Shown here: piece after piece, positions 30,086 to 51,052 of the stretch
Numbering within the stretch: position 1 is the first letter of the stretch
Layout: every line of letters begins with the position of its first letter
DNA from: Nakamurella antarctica
GTDB taxonomy: Bacteria > Actinomycetota > Actinomycetes > Mycobacteriales > Nakamurellaceae
Length of the DNA: 64,000 bases
Assembly (NCBI RefSeq): GCF_003860405.1
Contig: NZ_CP034170.1
Span: 2,914,001 to 2,978,000, forward strand
Reading direction: 5' to 3'
The notes under the pieces: generated by a model
What the model saw: only the letters and a program-made list of their open reading frames with translations
What the model was told of the DNA's origin: nothing
The model's database searches: none
Position numbers and translations under genes: made by a program

Positions 30086-30208
30086 TCAGCCCTGCCGGGC
30101 TTTCCATTTCGGATTCTTCTTATTGATGACGAACGTCTTGCCGTGCCTGCGCACAACGATCGATCCCTCTTTGAGTTTCAGCGCCCGCAGCGATGCTCGT
30201 ACTTTCAT
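30086..30208 (-). CDS. rpmJ: Ribosomal protein L36, zinc-free paralogue
   Basis: 40 aa, a short gene starting at ATG 30208 with GGAG eight bases upstream. The sequence [11 protein letters not shown], then [23 protein letters not shown], matches the type-B (YkgO-like) L36. The Cys3-His zinc site of normal L36 is absent and there is no Cys. It sits between the CobW-like gene and L28 in the same minus-strand operon. Under zinc limitation it would replace the zinc-binding L36. Confidence 0.93.
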
Positions 30209-30238: not shown

Positions 30239-31324
30239 TTAAGCAACTGATTCGGCCTCGCCCAGCCAGTCGTCCAATTCGTCTCCCTGTTGAATCCAGT
30301 GCTGGCGTCCTTTGGCGAGTTCCGCCTCGGTCATCACGATTCGATCGAAAGTAGACCGGATCCGCATCCGGTCATCATCGATGCCGGTGAAGATCAGTTG
30401 GGTTGATGGACGAGTGCCCTCCCATGAGCCAGCGTCGCCGACACTCACCTGGCCGCCCGCGCCATCCCACATTCCTACAGTGACCGGACGACTGGCCAGA
30501 TAAAAACGGCCACGGCTGCGGATACGCCCAGCACCCAATTTCTCGATCATCTCGAAGAACCTGCCCGGGTGGAAAGGTTTGCTGGACTTCAAATTTAGGG
30601 ACCAGACGCCATGGGCATCGCCCGCCGTGGGCGGCTGCACGCAACGGGGGTCCAGCCTTGCCTCGGCGTTAGTTCGGCGGTGGCGGTTGGCAAATAGCGC
30701 GTGGGCATCGATCTCGAAAAGGTCTTGCTGCCCGCTCTTGTGTCCGCGGAGGTGCTGAACCATGGTGAGACCTGCTGCGTCGTCGCCAACGGTGAGCGTG
30801 AGGTCGGCTTGTCCGATCTGTGCGGCCAGCGCTTCTCCGACACTGCGATTGTCATCGCGGCCAATCGATAAGGCGCGCTCGATCAACAGGTCATCACCCA
30901 TCAGGTCGGGGATCAGCTGCGCCGAATCAACCACCGTGATCGCCGCTCTCAGCGAGATGCCCAGCTCCCGCGCAGTTCGCACGTCCGCTAGCGGCCGGGT
31001 CACCGGCGTAGATTCCGCGGTCAGCGGGGAGAGCAGAATAATTCGTTTCCATCTGTTCTGCTCAACGAGGTCGGCAATTGCTGGCAACATGTCCTCGCGA
31101 ACGGCACACCCCATGCACGTGTGATCCAACATCTGGCTTGACCGCTGGACAACACCCGTCTCATCGCTAACCACCCGGTGCAGTTCACCCGAATCGGGAT
31201 CAAGATCCTGCCGGAGCACCACAGTGCCTGACGACCCGCTCATGGCGGCGAAAACTGCGGAGTCGCGCAACACCTGATCGATGGTTGAGACAACGATCAG
31301 CGGCATTAAGCCGGCATCTGCCAT
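30239..31324 (-). CDS. CobW-like protein lacking the P-loop
   Basis: 361 aa. The CobW-type central motif TCMGCAVREDML (CxxC metal site) is at about residues 69–80, and a CobW C-terminal domain follows (VWSLNLKSSKPFHPGRFFEMIEKL). The N-terminus reads LIVVSTIDQVLRDSAVFAAM where GTPase members have GxxGxGKT, so no Walker A is present. M. tuberculosis Rv0106, encoded beside C− ribosomal proteins, appears to have the same arrangement. It is coupled to L33 (stop and start one base apart). Likely role: zinc allocation or ribosome remodelling in zinc starvation; the mechanism is not clear without nucleotide binding. Confidence 0.85.
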   Translation of the reverse strand: MADAGLMPLIVVSTIDQVLRDSAVFAAMSGSSGTVVLRQDLDPDSGELHRVVSDETGVVQRSSQMLDHTCMGCAVREDMLPAIADLVEQNRWKRIILLSPLTAESTPVTRPLADVRTARELGISLRAAITVVDSAQLIPDLMGDDLLIERALSIGRDDNRSVGEALAAQIGQADLTLTVGDDAAGLTMVQHLRGHKSGQQDLFEIDAHALFANRHRRTNAEARLDPRCVQPPTAGDAHGVWSLNLKSSKPFHPGRFFEMIEKLGAGRIRSRGRFYLASRPVTVGMWDGAGGQVSVGDAGSWEGTRPSTQLIFTGIDDDRMRIRSTFDRIVMTEAELAKGRQHWIQQGDELDDWLGEAESVA

Positions 31325-31325
31325 G

Positions 31326-31493
31326 TCAGCGCTCCTCTTTGAACTCGACGTGGCGCCGGATCTTCGGGTCGAACTTTCGCAGAACCAGGCGGTCCGGATC
31401 GTTGCGACGATTCTTGCGGGTCACGTAGGTGTAGCCCGTTCCGGCTGTGGACTTTAATTTCACGATTGGCCGAATCTCGTTCCTTGCCAACAC
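31326..31493 (-). CDS. rpmG: Ribosomal protein L33, zinc-free paralogue
   Basis: 55 aa from GTG 31493 (or 54 from the adjacent TTG), preceded by AAGGGA. The sequence [19 protein letters not shown], then [20 protein letters not shown], is the cysteine-free form of L33. First gene of the minus-strand zinc-starvation operon; its promoter region shares the palindrome at 31539–31555 with the divergent L31 operon. Confidence 0.95.
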
Positions 31494-31538
31494 ATTTCCC
31501 TTCTGATGGGTTCGTTCGATCCGAACCGTCTATTGTTA

Positions 31539-31555
31539 ACGATACTCGTTCTCGT
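31539..31555 (+). promoter_or_regulatory. Candidate Zur box between divergent C− ribosomal operons
   Basis: ACGATACTCGTTCTCGT is a 17-bp palindrome (6 of 8 arm pairs). It matches the site at the RiPP precursor promoter at 13 of 17 positions and the site upstream of znuA in centre and outer bases. For the L31 operon, TTGTTA (31534–31539) and TACTGT (31556–31561) form a −35/−10 pair with the box in the spacer. A second repeat, TACTG–3 nt–CAGTA, follows at 31556–31568. Zur binding is inferred from the genes controlled. Confidence 0.7.
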
Positions 31556-31611
31556 TACTGTTACAGTAGCACTCGACTATCCCAACCTCACCACTCTCAG
31601 GAGCAGCACTC

Positions 31612-31869
31612 ATGAAACCCGGCATCCACCCCGCGTACAGACCTGTGGTCTTCCGCGACGCCACGACCGGCGAACAATTCCTCACCAAATCCACGGCTGA
31701 CAGCGATAAGCAGGTCGTGTGGACAAACGGCAACACCTACCCACTCATCACTGTGGATGTCACCAGTGCCTCCCACCCGTTCTGGACAGGAACGGCCAGA
31801 ATCGTCGATACAGCGGGCCAGGTGGAGAAGTTCAATCGCCGGTACGGCCAACGAAAGCGAGCCATCTAA
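31612..31869 (+). CDS. rpmE2: Ribosomal protein L31 type B, zinc-free
   Basis: 85 aa. Type-B L31: [32 protein letters not shown] and RRYGQR are hallmarks, and the CxxC zinc site of type A is absent. An AGGAG ribosome binding site precedes the ATG. Its stop overlaps the L32 start (TAATG). It opens the plus-strand operon that appears to continue into the FecBCD-type importer, linking zinc-free ribosomes to metallophore uptake. Confidence 0.96.
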
Positions 31870-32033
31870 TGGCCGTCCCGAAGCGGCGGAAGTCCCGCTC
31901 TCGCACCCACTCTCGCCGATCCCAGTGGAAGACGACGGCTGCGGACTTGGTGCCGGTCACCATTTCTGGAAAGCAAGTTTTGATTCCGCGAAGGCTGATT
32001 ACTTTCTTCCATCGGCACCCAGAAGAACTCTGA
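31869..32033 (+). CDS. rpmF: Ribosomal protein L32, zinc-free paralogue
   Basis: 54 aa, starting [20 protein letters not shown], the L32 N-terminus. The four Cys of zinc-binding L32 are missing; the end reads [17 protein letters not shown]. It overlaps L31 by one base. An 82-base gap with no terminator leads to the substrate-binding protein gene, so read-through into the transporter is likely. Confidence 0.93.
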
Positions 32034-32115: not shown

Positions 32116-33294
32116 ATGATTTCCCCGCACTTCTACGCCGCTACCTCAGGGCGCCGGTCATCAAGCCGGTCACGACACAAGGCGCCGAAGGTCCTGTGGG
32201 CCTCGATGGCCATCATCGGACTCGCTGTGGCTGGCTGCGGGACCGCAACGGAAACACCCACCGCCGCATCCAGCAGTTCAGTTGCTGTTACCTCAGAAAC
32301 GAGTAGTGCTCCGGCGTCCACCTCATCTTCAGCAGCCGCCGAAAGCATGAGTTCAAGCGCCGCCGAAACCTCGGCTGCCATGAGTTCGGAAGAGGTTTCC
32401 GCTAGCGCTCCTGGCATGGAAGGTGGCAGCGCCACCCCCGTCACCCCGGTGCTTTCAATCACCAACGCCGACGGCACAGAAATCACCTTCGACAAGATCC
32501 CCGAGCGAATCGTCTGCCTCACCGGGCTCTGTGACGACGTGCTGTTTGAACTAGGCTTGGTTCCGGTGGGAACCAGTACTCCAGGACTTCTGGCATTGCC
32601 GGAATACCTTGGTGCTGAGAGCGCTTCGATCACTTCCATTACCGGAAGCTTCGGCGGCGAGGATGTCGAGTCCATCGCTGCTTTGACGCCAGATCTCGTG
32701 GTGGGCTTGGCCGGGGCGCACGACCAAATGAGCCCGTCGGTGGTGCAATTCGCTCCGCTGCTTTTATTGGACGTCACCAGCTACGAGGACTCGATTTCCT
32801 ACCTTCGCTCGTTTGGCGCACTTTTGGATAAAGCAGACGAACAAGTGATCGCCGAAAACTCCTTCAACGCTAGCCTTGCGAAAGCGCGAGAGGCTAGCAG
32901 CGCTGGCGGCCTGAAGAAAATGAAAGCGTTGACGATGTACGCAAGCGGCGGCGGCACCGGCGTTAATACCTCTGACGACCTGCTCGGCGGACTGATGTCA
33001 GAGATCTTCGAATACCCATGGCCTAATAAGGGTGGCGGCTGGGACACTGCACAGGCATACAGCACTGAAGAAATCCTTGCGGTGAACCCAGACATTATCT
33101 TCATCCAGTCGTTCACCGCTGATGCAGCAGCTCCCAAATATTCGCAAGAGCTGGCTGATAACCCGGTCTGGTCCCGAATTGCTGCTGTGCAGTCGGGCAA
33201 GGTGATCGAGGTCGACACCGCACTGTGGACCGCGGGTCGCGGACCACGAGCGTTGAGCCTCGTCCTCGACGAGGCAGTGGCTGCAGCCTCCTAA
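32116..33294 (+). CDS. Metallophore ABC importer, substrate-binding lipoprotein (FecB/TroA-type)
   Basis: 392 aa from ATG 32116, with TTGGAG six bases upstream. A long signal sequence ends in the lipobox LAVAGC, then a Ser/Ala-rich linker of about 80 residues (low complexity, cell-wall spacer), then a Peripla_BP_2 domain (KIPERIVCLTG, IAALTPDLVVGL, NPDIIFIQSF). Proteins of this class bind siderophores, haem or cobalamin rather than free metal ions. The gene follows zinc-free L31/L32 and precedes two FecCD permeases and an ATPase. I infer uptake of a zinc-bound small molecule, possibly the product of the convergent RiPP cluster. Confidence 0.88.
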   Translation: MISPHFYAATSGRRSSSRSRHKAPKVLWASMAIIGLAVAGCGTATETPTAASSSSVAVTSETSSAPASTSSSAAAESMSSSAAETSAAMSSEEVSASAPGMEGGSATPVTPVLSITNADGTEITFDKIPERIVCLTGLCDDVLFELGLVPVGTSTPGLLALPEYLGAESASITSITGSFGGEDVESIAALTPDLVVGLAGAHDQMSPSVVQFAPLLLLDVTSYEDSISYLRSFGALLDKADEQVIAENSFNASLAKAREASSAGGLKKMKALTMYASGGGTGVNTSDDLLGGLMSEIFEYPWPNKGGGWDTAQAYSTEEILAVNPDIIFIQSFTADAAAPKYSQELADNPVWSRIAAVQSGKVIEVDTALWTAGRGPRALSLVLDEAVAAAS

Positions 33295-33330: not shown

Positions 33331-34389
33331 ATGACTTATCGCCGTTGGGCGGTGATCGGCATGGCCATCGCGTTAATGGCCGTGTCGGTTGCCGCCCTCT
33401 GCATCGGTAATCCAATGCTCGCCCCTACCAGCCTATTTTCCGTTCTGGGCCAACCCGATTCCTTGGAATACGTGGTTCTTTTCGAGCTCCGCCTGCCTCG
33501 CCTCTTACTCGGCGCCGCGGCTGGCGCCGCCTTCGCAGTTGCAGGTTTACTGCTCCAGGAATCGTTGCGTAACCCGCTGGCCGTGCCAGAACTACTCGGT
33601 GTGGCCCCGGGTGCGGCTCTGGTGGTCGCGACCATCGTCGTGCTGGGAATCCCGGTACCCACAGCGTGGTTGCCAGTACTGAGCCTCATCGGCGCGCTGA
33701 GCGGAGGCATACTCACGCTGAGCATTGCTCGCCGAATGACCACCCCGACCGCCGTATTGCTGGGTGGTTCTGCGGTCTCGGCCGCACTCGGCGCTTTGGT
33801 GGTGGCGGTCGTAGCGATGGGCGAACAGCTGCAGATCCAAACCTTGTTGCGCTATCTCAGCGGCAGCCTCGCCGGATTGACCTGGCCGCAGGTCAGCCCG
33901 AGCCTGATCTGGCTGCTCTGCTTGATCCCCCTCACCGTTTTGGCGGTCCCTGCTCTGGGCGTGCTCCGGCTCGGCGAGGAGGTGGCGGCCAGCCTAGGGA
34001 TCAAGGTGTCTAGAACGAGACTGTTAATTCTGTTTCTGGCAGCGTTGCTGGTAGCCATTCCAGTATCGGTCTGCGGTCCCATTGCTTGGGTCGGCTTTCT
34101 GGCGCCACATCTGGCCCGTCGGTTGTTCCCGCTCGCCAGCGCGAAGGTCTGGATTCCGATGAGCGCGCTTGCTGGCGCTGTCTTCACCACCACCGCAGAT
34201 CTCGCTGCGCGCACTGTCTTTACTCCACTGGAAACCCCCGTGGGCGGTTGGACAGCAATCATTGGAGTGAGCGTGGGCGCAGTCCTGCTGGGCCGCCGAC
34301 GCCGCAATGCACGTCACAGCAGTGCAGGTCGCACCAGCGCAGACAAGCAACAAGCTGTTACTCCTGCGATCGACGGCCCCGGAAGATGA
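33331..34389 (+). CDS. FecCD-family metallophore ABC permease 1
   Basis: 352 aa. BtuC/FecCD permease with about nine to ten hydrophobic helices. Family motifs visible: RLPRLLLGAAAGAAFAVAGLLLQ, NPLAVPELLGVAPGAAL and GPIAWVGFLAPHLARRL. The last overlaps the usual coupling region, and a basic, polar tail follows (residues 318–352). ATGA overlap with the second permease. It forms a heterodimeric channel with that permease for a chelate delivered by the lipoprotein. Confidence 0.93.
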   Translation: MTYRRWAVIGMAIALMAVSVAALCIGNPMLAPTSLFSVLGQPDSLEYVVLFELRLPRLLLGAAAGAAFAVAGLLLQESLRNPLAVPELLGVAPGAALVVATIVVLGIPVPTAWLPVLSLIGALSGGILTLSIARRMTTPTAVLLGGSAVSAALGALVVAVVAMGEQLQIQTLLRYLSGSLAGLTWPQVSPSLIWLLCLIPLTVLAVPALGVLRLGEEVAASLGIKVSRTRLLILFLAALLVAIPVSVCGPIAWVGFLAPHLARRLFPLASAKVWIPMSALAGAVFTTTADLAARTVFTPLETPVGGWTAIIGVSVGAVLLGRRRRNARHSSAGRTSADKQQAVTPAIDGPGR

Positions 34390-35423
34390 AACTCGCCAAG
34401 AAGTCTTTACTCGGCTCGGGGGAGACCCGCCATGGGCGCACCGTGGCGGTGCTGGTCCTGCTGGCGTTCTTGGCCGCGATGGCCGACCTCATGTTGGGCC
34501 GCGGCTTTTCTGTTCCTCGATTTATTCCTGCTCTGTCCGATTCCAGCTCGGTGGAAGGTCAGATCCTGCGCCTGGTGCGCCTTCCACGAGTGGCGACCGC
34601 GGCCTTGAGCGGCGCCGGGCTTGGTGTTGCGGGGTTGATCCTGCAGGCTGTGCTGCGTAATCCACTGGCCTCCCCCGAACTCACCGGCGTCAACCCAGCA
34701 GCAGTTCTCGGAGTGATAGTCGCTATTAGCTTTTCCCTGGTCAGGCTGGATTCGGCGATGGGCCTGCTTTCAGCAGCTCTGATCGGCGGCCTGCTGGGGG
34801 GGGCTATCAGCTATCTCTTGACCAATCGGCTCGGCTCGCACCAGTTGATCCTGGTGGGCGTGCTTACAGCCGCCGTAACCGGCGGGGTGACGGTGTTGTT
34901 CCTGTCGTTGAACTCTTCCCAGTTCGGCAATGTGCTCCGGTGGCTCGTCGGGTCGGTGGACGGCCGAACCTGGGAGAACCTCCGGTACGCCGCGCCCTGG
35001 ATACTGGCATGGATACTGGTAGTTGCGCTCTTCAGCGGTGTCCTACCTATCATCGCAGGTGGCGACTCCCATGCTGCCGGCCTCGGCGTTGCCCTGCTGG
35101 CCGCCCGCGGACTGCTGCTTTTTGCCGCGGTGGCGTTAATCGCCGGTTCCGCGGCCTTGGCAGGCGCCATTAGCTTTATCGGTCTGGGCGTGCCACATAT
35201 CGTCCGAGCACTCGTCGGCGGCCAATCGCGGTGGGCGGTGCCCGCTGCGGCGCTGGTCGGGTCGATCTTGCTGTGCGCCTGCGATGCGCTCGCCCAATTC
35301 GGTACCGGCATTATCGCCGCCTCCGACATATCCCAACGGGCCGGACTTCCTGCCGGGGCGGTAGCCGCGCTGATCGGCGCGGGCGCCCTGGTGTGGGCGG
35401 CCAGAAAGCTTGATAAGCAATGA
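34386..35423 (+). CDS. FecCD-family metallophore ABC permease 2
   Basis: 345 aa from ATG 34386, which overlaps the previous stop (ATGA); the frame is open 100 codons upstream, but that part is a shadow of permease 1. FecCD motifs: RLPRVATAALSGAGLGVAGLILQ, NPLASPELTGVNPAAVLG and GAISFIGLGVPHIVRALVG. Pairs with permease 1. Its stop overlaps the ATPase start. Confidence 0.93.
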   Translation: MKLAKKSLLGSGETRHGRTVAVLVLLAFLAAMADLMLGRGFSVPRFIPALSDSSSVEGQILRLVRLPRVATAALSGAGLGVAGLILQAVLRNPLASPELTGVNPAAVLGVIVAISFSLVRLDSAMGLLSAALIGGLLGGAISYLLTNRLGSHQLILVGVLTAAVTGGVTVLFLSLNSSQFGNVLRWLVGSVDGRTWENLRYAAPWILAWILVVALFSGVLPIIAGGDSHAAGLGVALLAARGLLLFAAVALIAGSAALAGAISFIGLGVPHIVRALVGGQSRWAVPAAALVGSILLCACDALAQFGTGIIAASDISQRAGLPAGAVAALIGAGALVWAARKLDKQ

Positions 35424-36301
35424 CGGCGACAACGCGACCACACCACACCGGGCGCTGCGTGCTCTCGGCGCAGGGCCTCTGGCTCAATTACTTGCCGGCT
35501 AAGTACGCACTGCCGGATGACGATGTCCGCTGGGTGCTCAAGAATGTGAGCGTGCAGGTACGCGAGGGTGAGTTTCTTGCCTTGGTCGGCATTAATGGAT
35601 GTGGAAAAAGTAGCCTCCTGCAGGCGCTCTCCGGTTTGATGAAGGCACATCGCGGCGAGGTGACGTTGGATCTGCCTGACGAACAACCAGCGCGGTTGGC
35701 CGACATGTCCAGGCGCTCCATCGCCCGAAGGATCGCTACCATGCATCAGGTGCTGCCGCCGATGCCCGGGGTCACTGTCACGCAACTAGTGGATCAAGGG
35801 CAATACCCGCATCGGGGTGCCTTGGCCATGCTTGGCCGGCCCAGTGGGGGCGCTACGGCGCAAGCAATTGCGGCGGTCGGCATGACTGCCTTCGCCCATC
35901 GCGCGCTGGATTCCTTATCCGGCGGTGAACGGCAACGGGCCAGGCTGGCGCTAGCGCTGGCACAAAAAGGCCGGGTCCTTCTCCTAGACGAGCCCACGGC
36001 CCACCTAGATATCCGGCATCAACTCGAGATGCTCTCATTGATCAGGGATCTGCAGCGCAGTCATGGACTCACCGTGGTGATGGTGATTCACGATCTTGAT
36101 CAGGCTGCCCGATTTGCGGATCGGATCGTAGCGCTGACCGAAGGGCAAGTCTCCGCCGACGGGCGGCCGGAGGACGTCCTGACCTCACAACTGCTGGCCG
36201 AGGTCTTCGGGGTTCGGGGGCGAGTCGAACGGGACAAGGCCACCGATCGGCTGCATTGCTTTCTCGATGAGCCGGTTTCCCCTGGCGTCGAACGCGATTA
36301 G
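35420..36301 (+). CDS. Metallophore ABC importer ATPase (FepC-like)
   Basis: 293 aa. Walker A GINGCGKSS, signature LSGGERQRARLA, Walker B VLLLDEPTAHLD and H-loop VIHDLDQAARFAD. ATGA overlap with permease 2. It powers the FecBCD-type importer from the cytoplasm. Its last four bases overlap the end of the convergent CydC-like gene of the RiPP cluster, so the two operons meet tail to tail with no room for a terminator; transcripts would overlap. Confidence 0.94.
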   Translation: MTATTRPHHTGRCVLSAQGLWLNYLPAKYALPDDDVRWVLKNVSVQVREGEFLALVGINGCGKSSLLQALSGLMKAHRGEVTLDLPDEQPARLADMSRRSIARRIATMHQVLPPMPGVTVTQLVDQGQYPHRGALAMLGRPSGGATAQAIAAVGMTAFAHRALDSLSGGERQRARLALALAQKGRVLLLDEPTAHLDIRHQLEMLSLIRDLQRSHGLTVVMVIHDLDQAARFADRIVALTEGQVSADGRPEDVLTSQLLAEVFGVRGRVERDKATDRLHCFLDEPVSPGVERD

Positions 36302-38058
36302 CTCGGACTCACCTCATCAGCATTGAGGAGCGAACGCAGTGCCGATTCGCCGTGCATTAACTCATCAAAGCTGCCCTGCTCCAGAACCTTCCCACCGCCA
36401 AGGACGATAACCCTGTCTGCCCTGGCTATGGTGGATCTGCGGTGGGCGATGATCAGGGTGGCTCGGCCACTTTTGCCCACCTGCATGGCCTGGGCTAACT
36501 CCAGCTCACTTGTGGTGTCCAAGTTGGCCACCGCTTCGTCCAGGATGAGCACCGAGGGCTCCACCAATAAGGCGCGGGCAATGGCAACTCTGGCGCGCTG
36601 CCCCCCGGACAGAGTGACGCCACGCTCCCCGACCATCATTTCTAGGCTGTGGTCTCTGGCTGTTACGAAGCCGCCCAACTGGGCGGTCTGGACCACCGCA
36701 AGGACTTGGGCATCCGTTGCCTCAGGTCTCCCAAGACGAACATTGCCCGCGAGCGAGTCGGCGAATAGATCGACATCCTGAGGCACAGCGCTCACCGCGG
36801 CGCGCAGATCGTTGTCGGCAAGGTACCGAATATCGGTTCCGTTGAGGAGGATCTGCCCATTGTCCGGGTCCCAGAACCGCTGCAATAAACTCATTGCGGT
36901 GCTTTTCCCTGCGCCAGAATGGCCAACCAGTGCCACCACCTCACCTTGGTGCACGCTGAAGCTCACTCCGGTCAACACCGGGTCTGCCTGCCGATAGCCA
37001 AACTCGACACCGACAAACTCCACCATTGGCACCGCGCCCGCAAACTTGCCCAATGGCTGCGGCTTGGGGTCTTGCGGCGCCGAGTCCGGGGCGTCCATCA
37101 GCGCAAAAATTCGGGTCGCCGACGCGCGCAGCACTCCCATATCCCGCAGTGTCACCGCCACCCCAGCGGCCGGCGCCAGCACGGCGCCCACCAAGGCCAG
37201 TACGACAGGGGCTGCTGCGGCGTCCACCCGCCCGTCTCGTACTCCGAGCATCAAAACCAACAACGACAACACCGCAGCCCCAGAAACCAAGAGCTCGGTC
37301 AACGATCCTTCAGCAGCGCTCCGGCGAACTCCCGACATCCCTACCGCATTCAGATCGCGAGTCTGGGCGAATAGCGCCTTTCGGCGCCTCGGCAACGCTC
37401 CGGCCGCGGCTAATTCTGGTAATCCTTGGATCGTGTCGACGATTTCTGAGGTCAGTGCCGCGGAACCGGCCCGCAACGCATGACCCTGACGGTCTGCTAT
37501 CCGGCGCAACCACCAAGGGACGCTCATCAGGGCCAAGGCAGCCGGAATTGCAACCCACAGCACTTCAGGGTCAATCAACGCTACCCCGGTGAGACCGCCG
37601 GTGACAATCACGCCCGCAACAAAGATCTGCGCAAAAACGTGGGCGTAAATCCACTCCAAACTTTCAATATCTTGGACGGCGGTGCTAGATAGGTCGCCGC
37701 TTCTCCGGCTGGCCGTCCGGCTGGGAAGGGTTTGGCGAAGCCGATCAAAGAGCCGCACTCGGAGCGAGGCCAGCACGACATAGGCCAAGTCGTGGGCGAC
37801 ATACATCTCCCAGTAGGTGCACCCGGCGACCACCAGCACGCAGAACCCGATCACCCACACCAGCAGCAACGCGTGCCCGGAGAAGACTTCGAAGTTCGGC
37901 ACACTGACGGCCTGGCCGGCGAGCCAGGCACCGCTTACCGCTGCAACCACCGTGCCTACTTGGGCCAGCAGGTTGGCCACCAAAGCTCCGACGAACTTGC
38001 CTCGATACTCACTGACCGCTGGCCACAGCCGCCGCACCGCTTGCCAGTCCCCGGCCAT
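36298..38058 (-). CDS. CydC-like ABC transporter of the RiPP cluster
   Basis: 586 aa. Six-helix ABC membrane domain (about 1–320) and ATPase with Walker A GHSGAGKST, signature LSGGQRARVA, Walker B VLILDEA and H-loop IAHRRS. Best resembles the CydC half of CydDC-type exporters. No cytochrome bd genes are nearby; instead it is the last gene of the peptide-modification operon, overlapping the CydD-like gene (TGATG). I infer export of the finished peptide. Import, as done by mycobacterial IrtAB, is an alternative. Confidence 0.85.
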   Translation of the reverse strand: MAGDWQAVRRLWPAVSEYRGKFVGALVANLLAQVGTVVAAVSGAWLAGQAVSVPNFEVFSGHALLLVWVIGFCVLVVAGCTYWEMYVAHDLAYVVLASLRVRLFDRLRQTLPSRTASRRSGDLSSTAVQDIESLEWIYAHVFAQIFVAGVIVTGGLTGVALIDPEVLWVAIPAALALMSVPWWLRRIADRQGHALRAGSAALTSEIVDTIQGLPELAAAGALPRRRKALFAQTRDLNAVGMSGVRRSAAEGSLTELLVSGAAVLSLLVLMLGVRDGRVDAAAAPVVLALVGAVLAPAAGVAVTLRDMGVLRASATRIFALMDAPDSAPQDPKPQPLGKFAGAVPMVEFVGVEFGYRQADPVLTGVSFSVHQGEVVALVGHSGAGKSTAMSLLQRFWDPDNGQILLNGTDIRYLADNDLRAAVSAVPQDVDLFADSLAGNVRLGRPEATDAQVLAVVQTAQLGGFVTARDHSLEMMVGERGVTLSGGQRARVAIARALLVEPSVLILDEAVANLDTTSELELAQAMQVGKSGRATLIIAHRRSTIARADRVIVLGGGKVLEQGSFDELMHGESALRSLLNADEVSPS

Positions 38059-39788
38059 CAGACCCGCACTTCCTGAGAGTTCAGCAAATCTACAAGAGGG
38101 CCAGGCCGTCCGCGGAGATCCACCGCAGCGCCCTGTTGCACGATGCAGCCATCGTCAAGCACCACGATGTCGTCGGCCTCTGCGATAGTGCTGAGTCGGT
38201 GCGCGATCATCAAGCAGGTTCGGCCTTCCCGAACACCTTTGAGCGCTTGGACGATTTCGAATTCGCCAGCGGTATCAACATGCGATGTCGCCTCGTCCAG
38301 AATCAGCACCGGTGCATTCCGAAGTATCGCCCGGGCTAGTGCCAAACGCTGGCGCTGCCCACCGGACAGCGACTTGCCACCCTCGTCCAAAACCGTTTCA
38401 TACCCTTGTGGTAACTCACGAATAAACTCATCGGCTTGCGCCATCCGGCATGCATGTTCAACCTGCTGCTCGGAAGCATCCACCGCGCCGAGACGCAGAT
38501 TCTCTCGGACAGAAATGTTGAATAGGTAAGTGTGTTGATTCACCACGGCCAGACTCGCCCGCAGTTCCTCGATTCGAAGTTCTCGGATGTCCATTCCGTC
38601 AAACAGGATTGAGCCGACGTCCGGGTCATGTGTGCGACCGAGCAACGACACGAGGGTCGATTTACCTGCGCCGGAGCGCCCGACGATCGCGGTGGTTCGC
38701 CCGGCTCTGATGGTGAGGTCCAGCCGCTGCAATGCTGGGGTTCGCGCTCCCGGATAGCTGAACTGGACGTCTTCAAAGGTGATGGTCGGCGGGGTTCCCG
38801 CCTTCCACGGAGCCAGACTGGTCCCAGAGTCAGCCACGGTCGGCTTCGCACTGAGTAACGCGGTAATCCCGTCTACCGCAGTGATTCCGAGATACCCTGC
38901 GTGCCACGCTTTCCCAAGATCTCGCACCGGCCTGAAGCACTCGAAAGCGATCAGCAGAACCAGGAACATCAATGACGCCCCACCTTCGCCCCTGCCTACC
39001 GCAACTGCGGCCAGCACTACGGCCGCCGAAGTGCCCGTCTGCACTAGCAGCGCCGTCATTCCGCTCTCTGTGAGCGAAAGTTTCAACTCTGCCATGGTGT
39101 CTTGGTACAGCGTGTGCGAGCGTTCTTCGAGTGTGTCCCTGCGTCTTTCGGCGGCACCGAACGACCTCAGTGTCGTAATCCCTTGCATTGCCTCCAGGTA
39201 GTCGGCTGAGAGATCGGTGTAGGCCTGCCAGCGTTGTTTGCCCGTGGCCATCAATTTCAGATCCTGCAATCTGGGCACCGTCAACACCAGGACAATGCAG
39301 ATCAACAGCACCCAGGCGATAGTGGTGTTCAGGGTGAACATCCAGGCGACCAACGCGGTCGGGACCAGCACGGTGACAACAACCTGTGGCAGGTAGCGGC
39401 TGTAATAAGGATCAAGTCCGTCGACCCCGTCAGTCAATGTTGCCTGCGCAGCTCCGGCTCTGGCGTGGCTCAGGTAGGCCGGGCCAAGGTCGGCCAGGGC
39501 GGCCACGAGTCGATCCCGTAAGCGGGCCCGGATTAAACCGCCGGCCCACGTTGTCACGACCTCGCGGACCCAGATCACGCCGGTTCGAAGGACGATGAAA
39601 ATCAGGGCGAACGACAGGTAGCGGATCGCGCCGTCTGCGCTGCCCTCGAAGAGCTCGGTGAGCGCTTGTGCGACCAAAAGCGCTTGAGCGATATAGGTGC
39701 CGGACACGATCAAACCCATCAAGACACAAACGGTCATCGGCCACCACACCCGCCCGGCTAGTTCGAGAAGGCGTCGGTGAATCATCAT
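38058..39788 (-). CDS. CydD-like ABC transporter of the RiPP cluster
   Basis: 576 aa. Membrane domain with the CydD-type segment GVDGLDPYYSRYLPQVVVTVLVPTA split over about residues 119–145, then an ATPase: Walker A GRSGAGKST, signature LSGGQRQRLA, Walker B VLILDEATSHVD and H-loop IAHRLS. Both ATP sites of the pair look catalytically competent, unlike the asymmetric exporter at 15.4–19.1 kb. It starts eight bases after the YcaO stop. Confidence 0.86.
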   Translation of the reverse strand: MMIHRRLLELAGRVWWPMTVCVLMGLIVSGTYIAQALLVAQALTELFEGSADGAIRYLSFALIFIVLRTGVIWVREVVTTWAGGLIRARLRDRLVAALADLGPAYLSHARAGAAQATLTDGVDGLDPYYSRYLPQVVVTVLVPTALVAWMFTLNTTIAWVLLICIVLVLTVPRLQDLKLMATGKQRWQAYTDLSADYLEAMQGITTLRSFGAAERRRDTLEERSHTLYQDTMAELKLSLTESGMTALLVQTGTSAAVVLAAVAVGRGEGGASLMFLVLLIAFECFRPVRDLGKAWHAGYLGITAVDGITALLSAKPTVADSGTSLAPWKAGTPPTITFEDVQFSYPGARTPALQRLDLTIRAGRTTAIVGRSGAGKSTLVSLLGRTHDPDVGSILFDGMDIRELRIEELRASLAVVNQHTYLFNISVRENLRLGAVDASEQQVEHACRMAQADEFIRELPQGYETVLDEGGKSLSGGQRQRLALARAILRNAPVLILDEATSHVDTAGEFEIVQALKGVREGRTCLMIAHRLSTIAEADDIVVLDDGCIVQQGAAVDLRGRPGPLVDLLNSQEVRV

Positions 39789-39798
39789 GGTGAGATCC

Positions 39799-41196
39799 TC
39801 AATTGTGCGGCGGTGGAGTCAATGTGACATTGGCCAGCTTGGGTCTAAATCCAGAGCGGCCGTGCGACAGCGCTATCTCCGTCAATCGTTGTGTTCCGAG
39901 GTACGGATAGGCAGCTGGCGCGTTGGGCAGGAGGCCGGGAACAATCACCCGCGCCACAGCTAGCGGGGTCTGAGCCACATCCGCCGTGGTGAGATCGATC
40001 GTCACCGGATGAAAGTTGTCGCGGTGGAGCGCTTCCTGAAATTCCTGGGTGTCGCCCGGGGGGAGGCTAGCGATATCGACCGGACGCCGACCGTCACCCC
40101 TGAACCTTTCCAACATCGGGTGTAACCGGTCATCTAGCCACAGCTGCGTTTGGGCCGCGAGATCTTTGATATTGCAGAAGTTCTCGCCGACATCGTCGAG
40201 ATAGCGTCGGTCAGCCCGATAGGGCAAGTACGACTTCGGCGAGAATGCTCCAGCGGCGACGGCCTGGAAGCTGGCGCCATCGGCTGCTGTCAGCCCCGAG
40301 GTAGCGATCCACACCTGCAACGCCTCCTGGATAGCCTTCCGGCCTGCATGCTGCGGATCAGGGTGGCTGGAGAATCCGGCGGCCGGGATCTTGGCGTCGT
40401 TGTCAAAAATCAAAGCGCCCAGCACGGGCAGTCCGAACTCCGACGGGAGGCTCACCAGCGTTACCTGGAATGGACAGCCGGCCCAATCGTCGCGGAAACC
40501 TTCAATGCTGAACGGGTCCACCGATATTGCCGGTAACCCAAGCAGCCACCAGGCGACTACGGCGTCACGTTCGATGCATTCGGCGAGCGCCCGCTCCGCA
40601 GCATCTGCCAGTCCCGCGCCGGTGGCGATCCCCGCGTAATTCAAATGGTTGGTGCGCGGCTCATTTCGGCGAGAACCCTGGTGCCAGTTCAGGTACACCC
40701 ACGAACCGGGGACCAGAACCGGCTCCCGCTCGGGGCTGAACCCGCGCGCCCAGAGCACCTCCATAGTGTCGGTGAATCGCTGGTAGGCAAACCCTGGCTG
40801 TTGATGTTGTTCCACCGAGAAGCTGGCTAGCTGTCCGGCACCCACCACGTGATGTCCAGCGGCCCGCAATGCGGCAGCGGTCCCCCGCTCCAGATCAAGC
40901 GGAATGTTGTTGCCGCAGTATCTTTCGACACCTTCACCCAACGCTGCCATCCATGCGGCGCGACGATCACCGAAGGAAGTCCCAGCAGAAATCCGGTCTG
41001 CTAACCAGACGGCAAACTGGCGGGTATCAGAAACAGATGCGACACAACTGACGAAGTTTCGGGGTAGCCCCGTCATCGCAGGGAAATCACTGATCCGTTT
41101 TACGACCCCGCAGATCGGATCGACCAAATCTTCCACTGGGCGCAACTTTTGGCTGGCCGGCCGATCGATGGCGCCGATACCTGCGTGCATAGTCAT
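39799..41196 (-). CDS. YcaO-domain cyclodehydratase (TOMM, SagD-like)
   Basis: 465 aa. YcaO ATP-binding residues are recognisable: GEGVERY with Glu88 and Glu91, Asn186 in NYAGIATGAG, LAECIERD (205–211) and the later AIQEALQVWI. The protein ends TPPPHN; a Pro-rich C-terminus is typical of azoline-forming YcaO enzymes, where it contacts the partner protein. It would phosphorylate backbone amides of a precursor peptide and convert Ser, Thr or Cys to oxazoline or thiazoline. No TfuA partner, which would suggest thioamidation, is present. No FMN dehydrogenase is seen, so rings may stay as azolines. Overlaps the hydrolase gene (ATGA). Confidence 0.92.
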   Translation of the reverse strand: MTMHAGIGAIDRPASQKLRPVEDLVDPICGVVKRISDFPAMTGLPRNFVSCVASVSDTRQFAVWLADRISAGTSFGDRRAAWMAALGEGVERYCGNNIPLDLERGTAAALRAAGHHVVGAGQLASFSVEQHQQPGFAYQRFTDTMEVLWARGFSPEREPVLVPGSWVYLNWHQGSRRNEPRTNHLNYAGIATGAGLADAAERALAECIERDAVVAWWLLGLPAISVDPFSIEGFRDDWAGCPFQVTLVSLPSEFGLPVLGALIFDNDAKIPAAGFSSHPDPQHAGRKAIQEALQVWIATSGLTAADGASFQAVAAGAFSPKSYLPYRADRRYLDDVGENFCNIKDLAAQTQLWLDDRLHPMLERFRGDGRRPVDIASLPPGDTQEFQEALHRDNFHPVTIDLTTADVAQTPLAVARVIVPGLLPNAPAAYPYLGTQRLTEIALSHGRSGFRPKLANVTLTPPPHN

Positions 41197-42746
41197 TTCA
41201 GTAGTTCGCCTATCAGCTCGTCAACGGTCAGGTCCGAGGCTGTGCCAGTAGCTATGCAGACACGAATGTGAGCCGGCGCTTCTACCGATCTGGTTAACGG
41301 GTGCAGTTCGCTGACGCGAAGCGCATCCTCGCCCCGCTGCCCGTCTCGCGGATACAGCGGAAATTGGTGCCCACTCACCTGGACGGCGAGGTGGCTACCG
41401 AATCTGACGCGTTGGCTCACCCTGGGAATCGATATCCGCAGATTCGTTCGGTCAGCGGTGCGGATGATGCCGTGCCCCAACTGCACCGATTTGCCGTTGC
41501 TGCGGCATTCGATGACTCGAATCGCCCAATCCAACTGGACGCCGTCGGGTAGTGCCGCGTGGACTTGTCCCAGTTCGACAGTGAGCGTTCCGATCAAGTC
41601 CAGATCCTCCAAAAATGGGTCTGTTGTCAGCAGCGCGCAATCCGAACGCGCCATGAGGTCGCCAACCTCAGCCGGTCCCATTGCGCTGGGATGGGGGTCG
41701 GAGGGATCGGCAACGAAATCCGAACGATGCACCGAAAGCTCCAGGTGGGTTTGCCCTTGCTCTGTCGGCGGAACAGAACGCCATTGTTGGCAGGATTCCA
41801 CGGCCGATAACCCCACCCTGCCCGCAGGAGCTTCGCCATCGAGAACTCGCATCACCCATCCGAGAAGCGCTGCCACTGCGGGAATCTGATGCGCCCGCTG
41901 CCGAGGCCGGGCCCCATTGCGATCGCGGTGTTTCAGGCCGAGATCATGTTGCCAGGTGTTGATCAACAACCGCGCCGACTCATTCGGCCATTGCCGCCAC
42001 AGTTCCACCGCATCATCGCAATAGACATCGTAAAGTCCCGCCAGCACGATCAACGGTGGCACTGAGACCCTGGTATTCACCCGGCCCGACGACGTCATTC
42101 CAGGTGCTGTCCACCCGTCGCGACTCGTCTCCCAAGCGTCCGCGAAGCCGGGTAGGTCTACGCCCAGGCTCTCAGGGAGCTCCGCTACCGGCAGATGACG
42201 CAGCACATCCGGTCGGTGGCGGAGCAAGGCATCTAGTATCGGGCCACGGGTGGTCGACTGATCCCCTTGACTGCTCCACCACCAAGCATGCGCGAAAAGC
42301 CTTGGCACGCCGGAAGGCTCGCGAATTGTGTGCGCTAGCGAAAGCGCCGGAACTGTCACCACGACACCCCATAGATGGTCGCCAGCCAACCGGGCCAGTT
42401 CCACAGCGCAATGGGCACCATAAGAGCTGCCGTAGGCAATGACGCGTCCATCACTCCAAGGCTGCTGCTTGATCCACGCCAAGGTATCGCAACCATCGAG
42501 CCCCTCGTTAACATAGGGCTGCCAACGCCCGCCGGACTCATATCGGCCGCGAACATCTTGAATCACCGACCCCACACCCTTCGCGGCCCAGGAAAACGCC
42601 TCGGCCATGTGCGAACTGGTGGAGTAAGGCGTCCGGACCAACAGCACCGGATGCGGTCCGGCGCCGGCCGGCAGCACCACCTGGGTGTGCAACTGCGTGG
42701 AAATTCGGAAATCGCCCATCAGGCGAATGGCAGCGGGGGCCGTCAT
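41193..42746 (-). CDS. CocE/NonD-type hydrolase (S15 peptidase-like) in RiPP cluster
   Basis: 517 aa. X-Pro dipeptidyl-peptidase (S15)/CocE fold: RTPYS, QDVRGRYESGG, QPWSDGRVIAYGSSYGA with nucleophile Ser108, candidate Asp in GLYDVYCDD, His in TWQHDLG, and a C-terminal jelly-roll domain. No signal peptide, so it acts in the cytoplasm. The gene lies inside the modification operon with ATGA overlap to YcaO and two bases from the E1-like gene. I infer that it trims or releases the precursor; the precursor has a His-Pro step at residues 25–26. Esterase or amidase action is an alternative. Confidence 0.85.
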   Translation of the reverse strand: MTAPAAIRLMGDFRISTQLHTQVVLPAGAGPHPVLLVRTPYSTSSHMAEAFSWAAKGVGSVIQDVRGRYESGGRWQPYVNEGLDGCDTLAWIKQQPWSDGRVIAYGSSYGAHCAVELARLAGDHLWGVVVTVPALSLAHTIREPSGVPRLFAHAWWWSSQGDQSTTRGPILDALLRHRPDVLRHLPVAELPESLGVDLPGFADAWETSRDGWTAPGMTSSGRVNTRVSVPPLIVLAGLYDVYCDDAVELWRQWPNESARLLINTWQHDLGLKHRDRNGARPRQRAHQIPAVAALLGWVMRVLDGEAPAGRVGLSAVESCQQWRSVPPTEQGQTHLELSVHRSDFVADPSDPHPSAMGPAEVGDLMARSDCALLTTDPFLEDLDLIGTLTVELGQVHAALPDGVQLDWAIRVIECRSNGKSVQLGHGIIRTADRTNLRISIPRVSQRVRFGSHLAVQVSGHQFPLYPRDGQRGEDALRVSELHPLTRSVEAPAHIRVCIATGTASDLTVDELIGELLK

Positions 42747-42748
42747 TG

Positions 42749-43585
42749 TTAACGATCCCGACGTTGGGCGGGTGGGATCACCAGAATCGGGTGATCCTGG
42801 CTAATGAGTTCGCGCAGATCCACGACTCGCAACCGTTGCGACGCTTCCACTGTTTCTCCTGGTCTGGAAGTCGCCCAGTCCCGAAGGTCGTTGAACAGCA
42901 GATCGGCCACCAGGCCGCCCGCAGCGGCCGACATCAAGTAAGGCTCACTGATGCCGTCGCCGTGCCACAGGGATAGCTGCGCATCTGGGTGAGCCGAAGC
43001 CGCCAGCCTGCGCGATCGAACCGCCCGATGATCAACTGCGAGCGGACCAAAAGCCAGAGGTTCGAGATAGGCAAGCGCTCCCTCCACAGAGACCCGGAGC
43101 CACGCAATGCCAGCCCCGATCAGGAGATGCTCCTGGTCGAGCCAGAGCTGAGGAGCAACGTCGTCAGAGCACCAACACAGAGCGGACACATCGAGGGCTT
43201 GGGCTTCTTTTGGGTCTACCACCCGGACAAGTTCGCAGCCTGCACGTTTCAGCAGAGCAGCCAGGCCGTCGGCGATCTGACCCGATCCGCCCAGCCCAAT
43301 CCGACGGCGTTGAGCAGACCAACTCGTACCGGATTTGTAACCGGCGAAACCGCGTTGCGCCATGGCTTGCCCGAAGGCAGGCATGCGCAATAACTTCTCA
43401 AGTACAACTGTGTCGCTGCCAGCCGCTGATGTCGAGTGATAGTCCTGGGTATTCAATCCCAGCGTGCCAAGATTCACTGCGATCAGCTCACCATGGGGCA
43501 ATCGAATGGTCGGCTGTCCACCGGTCAGAAAGAGCGCGTGCCCGGGGGTCAGCAGCAGCTGCGGCTCACTCGACTCGTACTTCAT
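42749..43585 (-). CDS. E1-like TOMM partner (Ocin-ThiF-like, leader-binding)
   Basis: 278 aa from ATG 43585, chosen for AGGAAG five to six bases upstream. Residues 10–75 have a winged-helix-like, precursor-recognition character (GELIAVNLGTL); a Rossmann-type segment IGLGGSGQIADGLAALL follows at 96–112, and the rest is a degenerate ThiF/E1 fold. No CxxC zinc site and no complete ATP-binding E1 motif is visible, as in TOMM partner proteins that only bind the leader and activate YcaO. Between the precursor and the hydrolase gene. I am confident of the role class, less of the exact family. Confidence 0.75.
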   Translation of the reverse strand: MKYESSEPQLLLTPGHALFLTGGQPTIRLPHGELIAVNLGTLGLNTQDYHSTSAAGSDTVVLEKLLRMPAFGQAMAQRGFAGYKSGTSWSAQRRRIGLGGSGQIADGLAALLKRAGCELVRVVDPKEAQALDVSALCWCSDDVAPQLWLDQEHLLIGAGIAWLRVSVEGALAYLEPLAFGPLAVDHRAVRSRRLAASAHPDAQLSLWHGDGISEPYLMSAAAGGLVADLLFNDLRDWATSRPGETVEASQRLRVVDLRELISQDHPILVIPPAQRRDR

Positions 43586-43655
43586 GGCAACTTCCTGATT
43601 GCGTGCGTAAAGGGACAAATTTTCTCAATCTGGTTTAGGACTGCACCTGCGCGCC

Positions 43656-43702
43656 GATGACGGGCGATCCCGGAAGTGATCCGGCCGAGATCGCCCGTCA
43701 TC
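43656..43702 (-). terminator. Hairpin between precursor gene and modification genes
   Basis: GATGACGGGCGATC and GATCGCCCGTCATC form a perfect 14-bp stem. The 19-base loop holds a nested stem CCGGA/TCCGG. On the minus strand it starts 28 bases after the precursor stop and precedes the E1-like gene. No T-run follows, so partial termination or mRNA stabilisation is more likely than complete termination. Such hairpins let a precursor be made in excess over its enzymes. Confidence 0.75.
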
Positions 43703-43729
43703 CACTTTCGCCGCAGCAACCACCGCGGC

Positions 43730-43858
43730 CTACTCGCCCTCCTCGGCGAACAGATCTTCCACTAACGCATTTGAACAAGTCGGGTGCGCCGTGGAAGTCG
43801 CATTGAAGTCCATCGCGTCCATCGACTCGAAAACTCCTCTGATGTCAAGCTTCTCCAT
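43730..43858 (-). CDS. RiPP (TOMM) precursor peptide, 42 aa
   Basis: A 42-codon gene with ATG at 43858 and TAG at 43730–43732. Residues 1–19 (MEKLDIRGVFESMDAMDFN) form an acidic, probably helical leader. Residues 20–30 (ATSTAHPTCSN) concentrate the heterocyclisable residues Thr21, Ser22, Thr23, Thr27, Cys28 and Ser29 together with His25. Residues 31–42 (ALVEDLFAEEGE) are again acidic. It is first in the operon with E1-like, S15-like and YcaO proteins and has an exceptionally strong ribosome binding site. I do not recognise a described precursor family. Which segment is the core is inference; a C-terminal follower, as in bottromycin, is possible. Confidence 0.85.
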   Translation of the reverse strand: MEKLDIRGVFESMDAMDFNATSTAHPTCSNALVEDLFAEEGE

Positions 43859-43862
43859 ATCA

Positions 43863-43873
43863 ATCACCTCCTT
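43863..43873 (-). promoter_or_regulatory. Near-perfect ribosome binding site of the precursor
   Basis: AAGGAGGTGAT complements eleven consecutive bases of the usual 16S rRNA 3' end. The GGAGG core is eight bases from the ATG. It is the strongest ribosome binding site I saw in the window and fixes the start of the precursor gene. Confidence 0.92.
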
Positions 43874-43887
43874 CCGCTCTTGGTTTA

Positions 43888-43904
43888 ATGATAATGAGTA
43901 TCAT
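43888..43904 (-). promoter_or_regulatory. Candidate Zur box at the RiPP precursor promoter
   Basis: On the minus strand ATGATACTCATTATCAT is a 17-bp palindrome (7 of 8 arm pairs) 29 bases upstream of the precursor ATG. It overlaps the −10-like TATGAT (43906–43901). It shares 13 of 17 bases with the box at 31539–31555 and resembles Fur-family (Fur/Zur) operators in its TGATAAT core. The divergent pacL gene starts 213 bases away and seems not to share the box. Confidence 0.7.
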
Positions 43905-44117
43905 ATAGAAGTGATGTGCGCGACTCCTGGGCCGAAATATTGACCGTCACTCTTGCCTGCTGCGCGCTCACATGACGCAATTCATCGAGGGTGCGGCAGG
44001 CGTCACCGTTGCGGCACGGTCGTTCGATGCGGACTTGTCGCAGCTCGGAAGGTCGTAGGGTGAATAGACAGGCAGATGGTTCGCCCACGACCGAAACAAC
44101 GTAAGGAAGGCAACGCA

Positions 44118-44399
44118 ATGTTTATTGGAATTCTTGCTCGTCAGGCCGCTCATGCGGCGATCACTGGAGTAGTCGGGGTGGCAATTGTCAACGCTGTGAA
44201 GGGCTCCGGCGGACGTAACGTGGTCAAGAAGGCGGCCGTAGGAGTTGCCGAACTCGGCCTTCGGAGTGCGAGAGTGGCTGAAGCGGGCGCCGAAAACGTG
44301 CGGCTGGCAGCTGCGGATGTTATGGCCGAGGCCAAACAACGAGTGGGCGGAGAAGTCAAAGCTCCGGGTGTGCACACCGGAAACGATCACCAGCACTGA
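44118..44399 (+). CDS. pacL: PacL-type metal-binding membrane protein (DUF1490)
   Basis: 93 aa from ATG 44118 with AAGGAAGG upstream. A hydrophobic N-terminal helix (IGILARQAAHAAITGVVGVAIV) is followed by an Ala/Glu-rich amphipathic helix and a C-terminus ending GNDHQH, a probable metal-binding tail. Layout, length and position before a P-type ATPase match M. tuberculosis PacL1 (Rv3269) beside CtpC, where PacL1 scaffolds the pump and binds zinc. The plus-strand stretch 43905–44117 in front holds no supported gene. Confidence 0.85.
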   Translation: MFIGILARQAAHAAITGVVGVAIVNAVKGSGGRNVVKKAAVGVAELGLRSARVAEAGAENVRLAAADVMAEAKQRVGGEVKAPGVHTGNDHQH

Positions 44400-44460
44400 C
44401 GCCGTCCCTTCCCGTGACCTAGCGCAATAAGCTCTCCCGAGAAATGAGTGCCATCGCATC

Positions 44461-47936: not shown

Positions 47937-47952
47937 TGGAAATCGTTTTCCA
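47937..47952. promoter_or_regulatory. LacI-type operator 1
   Basis: TGGAAATCGTTTTCCA has TGGAAA/TTTCCA arms around a CG-containing centre, the usual form for LacI-family sites. It is 60 bases upstream of the lacI start and about 100 bases from the ATPase start. Confidence 0.6.
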
Positions 47953-49214: not shown

Positions 49215-49258
49215 CGCACTCGCATGCGTCGTCATCGGTGCCGAATCTGTTATCTTGA

Positions 49259-49275
49259 ATGGGAACCGTTCCCAT
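49259..49275 (+). promoter_or_regulatory. Candidate Zur box upstream of znuA
   Basis: The stretch 49258–49276, AATGGGAACCGTTCCCATT, is a perfect palindrome around one central base. Its inner 17 bases share centre and outer positions with the boxes at 31539 and 43888 (about 10 of 17 with the latter). It is 20 bases upstream of the znuA ATG, before the AGGAG binding site. Zur control of znu operons is well known; this exact site is inferred. Confidence 0.65.
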
Positions 49276-49295
49276 TATCGACAGGAGCTTCACCG

Positions 49296-50243: not shown

Positions 50244-50253
50244 ATTGACCTCA

Positions 50254-51039: not shown

Positions 51040-51052
51040 TGGGCGGCAAGCG

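Follow-up and report, generated by a model that had tools for sequence, protein, structure and literature searches.

The 64,000-nucleotide stretch of the Nakamurella antarctica genome analyzed here (the window; positions 2914001-2978000 of a one-contig 3.38-Mb genome) contains a gene cluster for a ribosomally synthesized and post-translationally modified peptide (RiPP), which by its sequence is a divergent member of the already described streptamidine (ami) family (PMC8442711). Predicted binding sites for the regulator Zur precede the precursor gene in nearly all of the A-type (streptamidine-type) clusters compared, and Zur control of these clusters is well supported in silico. The accompanying genes for a FecBCDE-type importer and an ABC exporter suggest a function in zinc acquisition, and we lean towards the view that the product is a peptide zincophore. 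A preliminary description of the window had placed a RiPP cluster linked to a FecBCDE importer in a zinc-starvation regulon, a proposal that the comparative data support. By contrast, it took the family as new, although this had been described, and the product as an azoline RiPP, which is not established. The earlier interpretation is therefore partly supported, with zinc control and the transport link right as far as can be judged in silico.

A divergent member of the streptamidine family

The described ami gene set consists of amiF1-F4 (FecBCDE), amiA, amiB, amiC, amiD (YcaO), amiE (dehydrogenase), amiT1 and amiT2 (PMC8442711). Streptamidine-type clusters were reported from more than 230 bacterial species, and their describers left the function undetermined. 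In Streptomyces albidoflavus, the core HLSATH gives rise to streptamidine, which has a six-membered amidine linking the amine of His to the carbonyl of Leu, and no azole. The same source states that motif A (HxSxxH core) marks a subset of the family, that 22 sequences have neither of its motifs, and that amiE is missing from many of the clusters (PMC8442711).

In a tree of AmiD sequences (48 rows), the window YcaO falls inside the A-type clade with support of 100/100, and PF02624 has no other match in the whole 3.38-Mb genome. Counterparts of amiB, amiC, amiT1, amiT2 and fecBCDE are all found near it:

43730..43858, minus strand: amiA-like precursor, 42 residues (MEKLDIRGVFESMDAMDFNATSTAHPTCSNALVEDLFAEEGE), with GGAGG directly 5' of the ATG; aligns with the AmiA of relatives at SNALV
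42749..43585, minus strand: amiB-like protein, 278 residues, a weakly E1-like partner; homologs adjoin amiD in relatives, and a Phyre2 result is quoted in PMC8442711
41193..42746, minus strand: amiC-like S15/CocE-NonD hydrolase, 517 residues (PF02129 and PF08530; TIGR00976 above cut-off)
39799..41196, minus strand: amiD-like YcaO of the streptamidine-type clade, 465 residues, C-terminal end TPPPHN (PF02624, 147 bits)
38058..39788, minus strand: amiT1-like ABC exporter (CydD-like, 406 bits; NCBIfam cut-off 435)
36298..38058, minus strand: amiT2-like ABC exporter (NCBIfam MsbA 291.7, cut-off 602; CydC 291.6, cut-off 329)
32116..33294, plus strand: FecB-like metallophore-binding lipoprotein, amiF1 (PF01497)
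33331..34389, plus strand: FecC/D-like permease (PF01032)
34386..35423, plus strand: FecC/D-like permease (PF01032)
35420..36301, plus strand: FecE-like ATPase (PF00005; FecE-type among the best NCBIfam matches)

The order, strands and coordinates given earlier for the genes from precursor to ABC pair are borne out by the sequence and by Pfam and NCBIfam matches, which likewise agree with the naming of a 42-residue precursor (43858-43730, minus), an S15-like hydrolase and a YcaO protein. The label 'CydDC-like' for the ABC pair is fair, as the best matches are to CydD and to MsbA/CydC, though all of these are below cut-off. The reading of AmiB as an E1-like leader-binding protein is weaker than was claimed: its best Pfam match is noise (E=0.034), it has no NCBIfam match, and a 30-sequence AmiB profile run against the PDB up to E=10 reported TruD as the sole chain, at a non-significant E=0.35. 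Removal of the leader is the probable role of the AmiC-like hydrolase. As described earlier, the cluster meets the Fec importer genes tail to tail, the ends of amiT2 (36298) and fecE (36301) overlapping by 4 bases, and the importer genes lie behind L31 and L32 genes whose products lack Cys.

The streptamidine cluster of S. albidoflavus J1074 (MIBiG BGC0002115) encodes FecBCDE, an ALV-bearing AmiA, AmiB, AmiC, AmiD, AmiT1 and AmiT2, as does the window, and the window YcaO is 47% identical to that of S. albidoflavus NRRL B-1271. The ALV motif is common to ami precursors; the window follower reads SNALVEDLF and that of S. albidoflavus, whose AmiA contains QLAHLSATHSNALVENPF, reads SNALVENPF. Unlike the S. 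albidoflavus cluster, that of the window has the core HPTC in place of HLSATH, lacks amiE between amiD and T1, and has its fec genes tail to tail with the ami genes and behind L31/L32. The Rhodococcus rhodochrous plasmid pNit contains the same kinds of genes, with one FecC/D-type permease compared with two in the window, and among them one annotated as 'streptamidine family RiPP'.

Zur boxes across the A-type family

The Zur consensus tGaNNatSatNNtCa was derived by chromatin immunoprecipitation on microarrays in S. coelicolor (PMC5472717). A 15-mer built on this consensus, TGAAAATSATTTTCA, was scored up to 450 bp upstream of the amiA core codons and up to 700 bp upstream of fecB, with at least 11/15 counted as a Zur box. 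Such a box is present upstream of amiA in 101/103 A-type loci, and at 12/15 or better in 94, compared with 0/103 for the reversed consensus and 15/2060 for dinucleotide shuffles (0/2060 at 12 or more). By source, these are 74/75 loci of a named set of relatives, 10/10 from the same order, 15/16 from the same class, one Rhodococcus plasmid and the window. With identical upstream stretches removed the count is 96/97, given because some species occur in both the named and the order/class sets. Upstream of fecB, a box is present in 68/77 loci, against 16/1540 shuffles; the nine misses are L053, L054, L055, L207, L109, L022, L023, L024 (locus numbers of this study) and the window.

The 89 A-type loci of at least 19 kb contain 161 sites at 12/15 or better, and none for the reversed motif. 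Of these sites, 81 precede amiA and 52 fecB, 3 precede another fec gene, 12 precede an L31/L32/L33/L36 or COG0523 gene, and 13 lie elsewhere. In the unscored flanks of 56 distinct sites, the majority base is that of the published 21-mer at 4/5 specified positions. Genera with a box include Streptomyces, Planobispora, Thermoactinospora, Streptosporangium, Microtetraspora, Nocardiopsis, Marinactinospora, Nocardioides, Williamsia, Cryobacterium and Rhodococcus. The named set is limited to the nearest 80 of 377 relatives and is mostly Streptomyces, so these loci cannot be counted as independent events; more weight falls on the occurrence of the boxes across families.

The named set comprises the best 80 of 377 confirmed YcaO relatives, those closest to the window YcaO, while the order/class set comes from 20/397 order and 34/394 class genomes at E<=1e-60, with about one place per genome. 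Loci with more than 300 bits to the window AmiD were taken as A-type (109 in all), amiA was recognized through its ALV follower (by hand in L055), and the window proteins served as tblastn queries for the Fec, T1 and ribosomal genes of relatives. The amiA counts leave out six A-type loci in which no amiA was recognized (L056, L063, L064, L077, L095 and L198, the last of which has a 12/15 site), and the fecB counts leave out 32 lacking a usable fecB match; L025 was excluded for want of an amiD match. Three of seven plasmid records with a YcaO match were viewed: L016 is an ami cluster, and L017 and L018, whose annotation has no fec or ami neighbors, were not counted.

Streptamidine itself comes from a species whose genome has this arrangement. 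In S. albidoflavus NRRL B-1271, the amiA ATG is preceded at a distance of about 70 bp by the predicted Zur box TGAAAATCATATTCA, and the likely fecB start at 80-90 bp by TGGCAATGATTATCA. The word Zur is absent from the main text of PMC8442711, and a literature search that had most subscription journals outside it gave no paper naming both streptamidine and Zur. The family-wide Zur link at ami loci is thus new relative to the literature searched, and the presence of boxes at both amiA and fecB in the A-type loci compared, model species included, suggests which metal and growth condition may bear on the function of the family.

Transport genes in relatives

Importer genes accompany the ami genes in nearly all A-type loci. 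Two or more of the fec genes are present in 89/89 A-type loci of at least 19 kb (all four in 68), and in 103/109 A-type loci overall. Together with the Zur boxes of the preceding section, this is the opposite of what the preliminary description had named as refuting it, namely related clusters without a tie to metal transport or Zur. A T1-like exporter gene is found downstream of amiD in 91/109 A-type loci. Five loci from the same order (L019 and L021-L024) contain ami and fec genes and have no amiT1-like match downstream of amiD within the stretch examined. Matches to L31/L32/L33/L36 or COG0523 are nearby in 25/89 loci, at least one Cys-free ribosomal match being present in 22. In the window, importer and exporter genes belong to one unit with the YcaO gene, and a role in transport of the product is predicted for both.

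The B-type relatives also have at least two fec genes in 18/25 loci, and a Zur-like site in 4/5 loci with a recognized precursor. The precursors of loci L030, L211, L212 and L213 have QGPGTN before ALV, with neither His nor Cys, and that of L216 has PTTH; four of these five have a site of at least 11/15 upstream of amiA.

Predicted Zur sites in the N. antarctica genome

Within an 18-kb stretch of the window, three palindromes match the published 21-mer with 3 mismatches:

43889..43903 (21-mer 43886-43906), minus strand: Zur box of the precursor gene, TGATACTCATTATCA, 12/15 to the published consensus, about 30 bp before the precursor ATG
31537..31557: Zur-like palindrome TAACGATACTCGTTCTCGTTA, a clear dyad in the intergenic space from which L33 and L31 diverge, with fecBCDE following on the L31 side
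49257..49277: third, more divergent palindrome GAATGGGAACCGTTCCCATTA, ahead of znuA at 18 bp from its ATG; absent from the preliminary description

The first two had been described as the same 17-bp palindrome, which is overstated: they are related dyads, identical at 16/23 positions in the best register. At 3 mismatches, the 21-mer occurs at 11 positions of the genome, including these three; the reversed 21-mer gave 9 matches against 17 with both strands counted, so that single matches elsewhere in the genome are weak. A further 21-mer site, matched on both strands, lies outside the window at 3116904-3116924 of the contig (L234). Another 12/15 match to the Zur consensus, at 47937-47951, lies between genes for a LacI-type regulator and a UgpC-type ATPase and is probably unrelated to zinc. 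A promoter and terminator scan of 43600-44100 found nothing.

Two FUR proteins are encoded in the genome. One of them (C1:87111) has PDB entry 3mwm as its best match (E=8e-43) and 2o03 as its third, which we take to be the S. coelicolor Zur and the Mycobacterium tuberculosis FurB, respectively. By these matches the genome encodes its own Zur protein, and the precursor promoter has a predicted box for it.

Precursor core and amiE

The predicted core of the window precursor is HPTC, containing His and Cys and lying between ..TSTA and the SNALVEDLF follower; it does not conform to motif A, HxSxxH. The same core is present in the congener (L020), in Planobispora (L053 and L054, the latter repeated by L207) and in Thermoactinospora (L055). 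The most Cys-rich precursor of the set, at 13309-13512 of L190 (genome G387), has HACC before CHALVEDLF. In the tree, the remaining A-type rows form a group (99/98) that excludes those with HPTC and HACC, the HPTC rows making up one or two branches. Across the A-type precursors, the residue preceding the follower is His in 96/103 and Cys in 7/103.

A T1-like exporter gene follows amiD within 4 kb in 91 A-type loci, and of these only the window (14 bases) and L020 (20 bases) have fewer than 700 bases between amiD and T1, so that amiE is missing there; the 18 A-type loci without a T1-like match are left out of this count. A search for AmiE in five genomes, run without a positive control, gave no match.

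Neighboring genes related to zinc

Several metal- or zinc-related gene sets are packed in about 22 kb of the window (30086-51937). Next to the fec genes are those for zinc-free ribosomal proteins and a COG0523 protein:

31612..31869, plus strand: L31 (type B), without Cys (sequence and family match)
31869..32033, plus strand: L32, without Cys (sequence and family match)
31326..31490, minus strand: L33, without Cys, divergent from L31 (sequence and family match)
30239..31324, minus strand: COG0523/CobW-type GTPase (best NCBIfam match MRF, below cut-off)
30086..30208, minus strand: L36 (type B), without Cys (sequence and family match)

On the other side, the precursor gene is adjoined by a DUF1490 gene followed by a heavy-metal P-type ATPase gene (44118-46695), a pair that presumably resembles the PacL1-CtpC metal exporter of M. 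tuberculosis. A znuA-like gene (49296-50243) is followed by genes for an ATP-binding protein and a permease, giving a znuACB-like set in the stretch 49257-51937.

Proposed function and alternatives

On balance, the window cluster probably makes a Zur-controlled peptide zincophore that is exported by AmiT1T2 and re-imported by FecBCDE. Its place in the family, its gene set, the A-type-wide Zur boxes and the Zur protein of the genome are established in silico, while cleavage points, ring type, zinc binding and transport direction belong to the following proposed scheme. In zinc shortage, Zur would leave the boxes at 43889-43903 and 31537-31557, and the precursor, AmiB, AmiC, AmiD and the exporter would be made together with the zinc-free ribosomal proteins and FecBCDE. 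AmiB would present the precursor to AmiD, and AmiC would cut off the leader, freeing the His amine. The YcaO protein would then cyclize the peptide, either to a six-membered amidine at His-Pro or, through Thr/Cys, to an azoline. The product, the HPTC core with one dehydration (predicted [M+H]+ 439.176), would offer imidazole, amidine or azoline N, and thiolate as donors; a second dehydration would give 421.165, and the zinc-bound ion [M-H+64Zn]+ would have 501.089. Following export by AmiT1T2, it would take up Zn(II) outside the cell and return through FecBCDE.

Several observations speak against this zincophore scheme. The authors of PMC8442711 suspected metal import from the fec genes, tested it and found no support: purified streptamidine bound none of seven metal ions, zinc included, and starving an amiD mutant of metals brought out no phenotype. 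Metal binding by the window product is thus an expectation that is contradicted for one relative. In the same work, streptamidine was made in cultures not described as zinc-limited, and deletion of fecBCDE abolished its production, an effect not obviously expected from the loss of a pure importer. Formation of streptamidine requires AmiE (PMC8442711), and the window and the sole congener with the cluster have no amiE beside amiD. In the window, the L31/fecB box scores 9/15 to the published 15-mer (hand count), and the window fecB is counted as a miss in the 68/77, the box standing before L31. Jiangella endophytica, one species represented twice (L079 and L197), has no convincing amiA box (9/15). 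Finally, four of the five B-type precursors have neither His nor Cys before ALV and three of those four have a Zur-like site, so that conservation of His/Cys is not enough to account for the link to zinc.

Some of the negative results on streptamidine may have other explanations. The dehydrogenase is essential though no oxidation was seen, for which hydrolytic loss of an oxidized part was offered as one explanation (PMC8442711); if so, streptamidine as tested may not be the working form. The starvation mutant is described as lacking amiD only, and other zinc uptake may have covered the loss. An extension of the zincophore scheme to the whole A-type family, which we regard as evenly poised, is that these clusters, spread over many actinobacterial genera, make ribosomal zincophores under Zur repression. 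Such peptides would be short, end in His (or His/Cys), carry an amidine at the N-terminus, and be exported and taken up again by dedicated FecBCDE systems. The HPTC branch of the window would then be a thiolate-using one, made without a dehydrogenase beside the YcaO, and the negative binding result for streptamidine would come from an incomplete, hydrolyzed or wrongly sized product. The His/Cys-core branch may be a better candidate ligand than streptamidine.

The alternative with the greatest claim to attention, though we hold it to be doubtful, is that the peptide is Zur-controlled but does not chelate zinc, acting instead as a zinc-starvation signal or a competition agent, with FecBCDE retaking the signal or importing another chelator. 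It is favored by the negative metal-binding and starvation tests of streptamidine, whose authors proposed signaling or development (PMC8442711), and by the fec genes (at least two in 18/25 loci) and Zur-like sites (4/5) of the B-type relatives. Against it, streptamidine showed no antibacterial or antifungal activity (PMC8442711), and 103/103 A-type precursors have His or Cys before the follower. FecBCDE-type systems, moreover, are typically importers of metallophores. It is unlikely that the product is a metallophore for another metal (iron, cobalt, nickel or copper) and belongs to the Zur regulon by chance. The name FecBCDE comes from iron citrate, and the genes are called iron transporters in PMC8442711, but an IdeR-like box (at least 14/19 to the consensus used) was found upstream of 0/103 amiA and 0/77 fecB genes, and the L31/L32/L33/L36 or COG0523 neighbors in 25/89 loci, 22 of them with at least one Cys-free ribosomal match, are in accord with zinc. 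Iron control by IdeR was rejected, no such box being present at the threshold used.

It is more improbable still that the palindromes are sites of a different regulator with a similar dyad. The deviation of the window boxes from the published consensus (12/15 and 9/15) and the second FUR-family protein of the genome would allow it, but the consensus derived by chromatin immunoprecipitation (PMC5472717) is matched family-wide, and 12 sites with this motif precede ribosomal-paralog or COG0523 genes of these loci. Least probable of all, and rejected, is a coincidental neighborhood, in which FecBCDE and ribosomal genes are mere neighbors of an unrelated RiPP cluster; beyond the view from a single window it has nothing in its favor, and it is contradicted by the family-wide box and fec counts and by an association kept in several actinobacterial families and in several orientations.

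Comparison with known systems

If the A-type peptides do carry zinc, they would constitute zinc-acquisition RiPPs parallel to the copper-binding methanobactin; among the matches listed in the literature searches (titles and abstract starts), there was no earlier zinc-acquisition RiPP. The MNIO (DUF692-type) enzyme of methanobactin has no counterpart in the window cluster, a scan of its ten ami and fec proteins giving no match to that family. The cyclodehydratases of TOMM and cyanobactin pathways (TruD) combine a YcaO domain with an E1-like partner, as proposed for the window, in which, however, AmiB and AmiD are separate proteins and the precursor lacks a long Ser/Thr/Cys-rich core. The coelibactin cluster of S. 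coelicolor is a Zur-repressed zincophore cluster (PMC5472717) and resembles that of the window in being a Zur-controlled peptide cluster in an actinobacterium, but its assembly is non-ribosomal, with enzymes unrelated to those of the window. Methanobactin, by contrast, is a RiPP, and shares with the proposed window product a ribosomal origin and a role as an extracellular metal chelator; it binds copper, whereas the window product is proposed to bind zinc.

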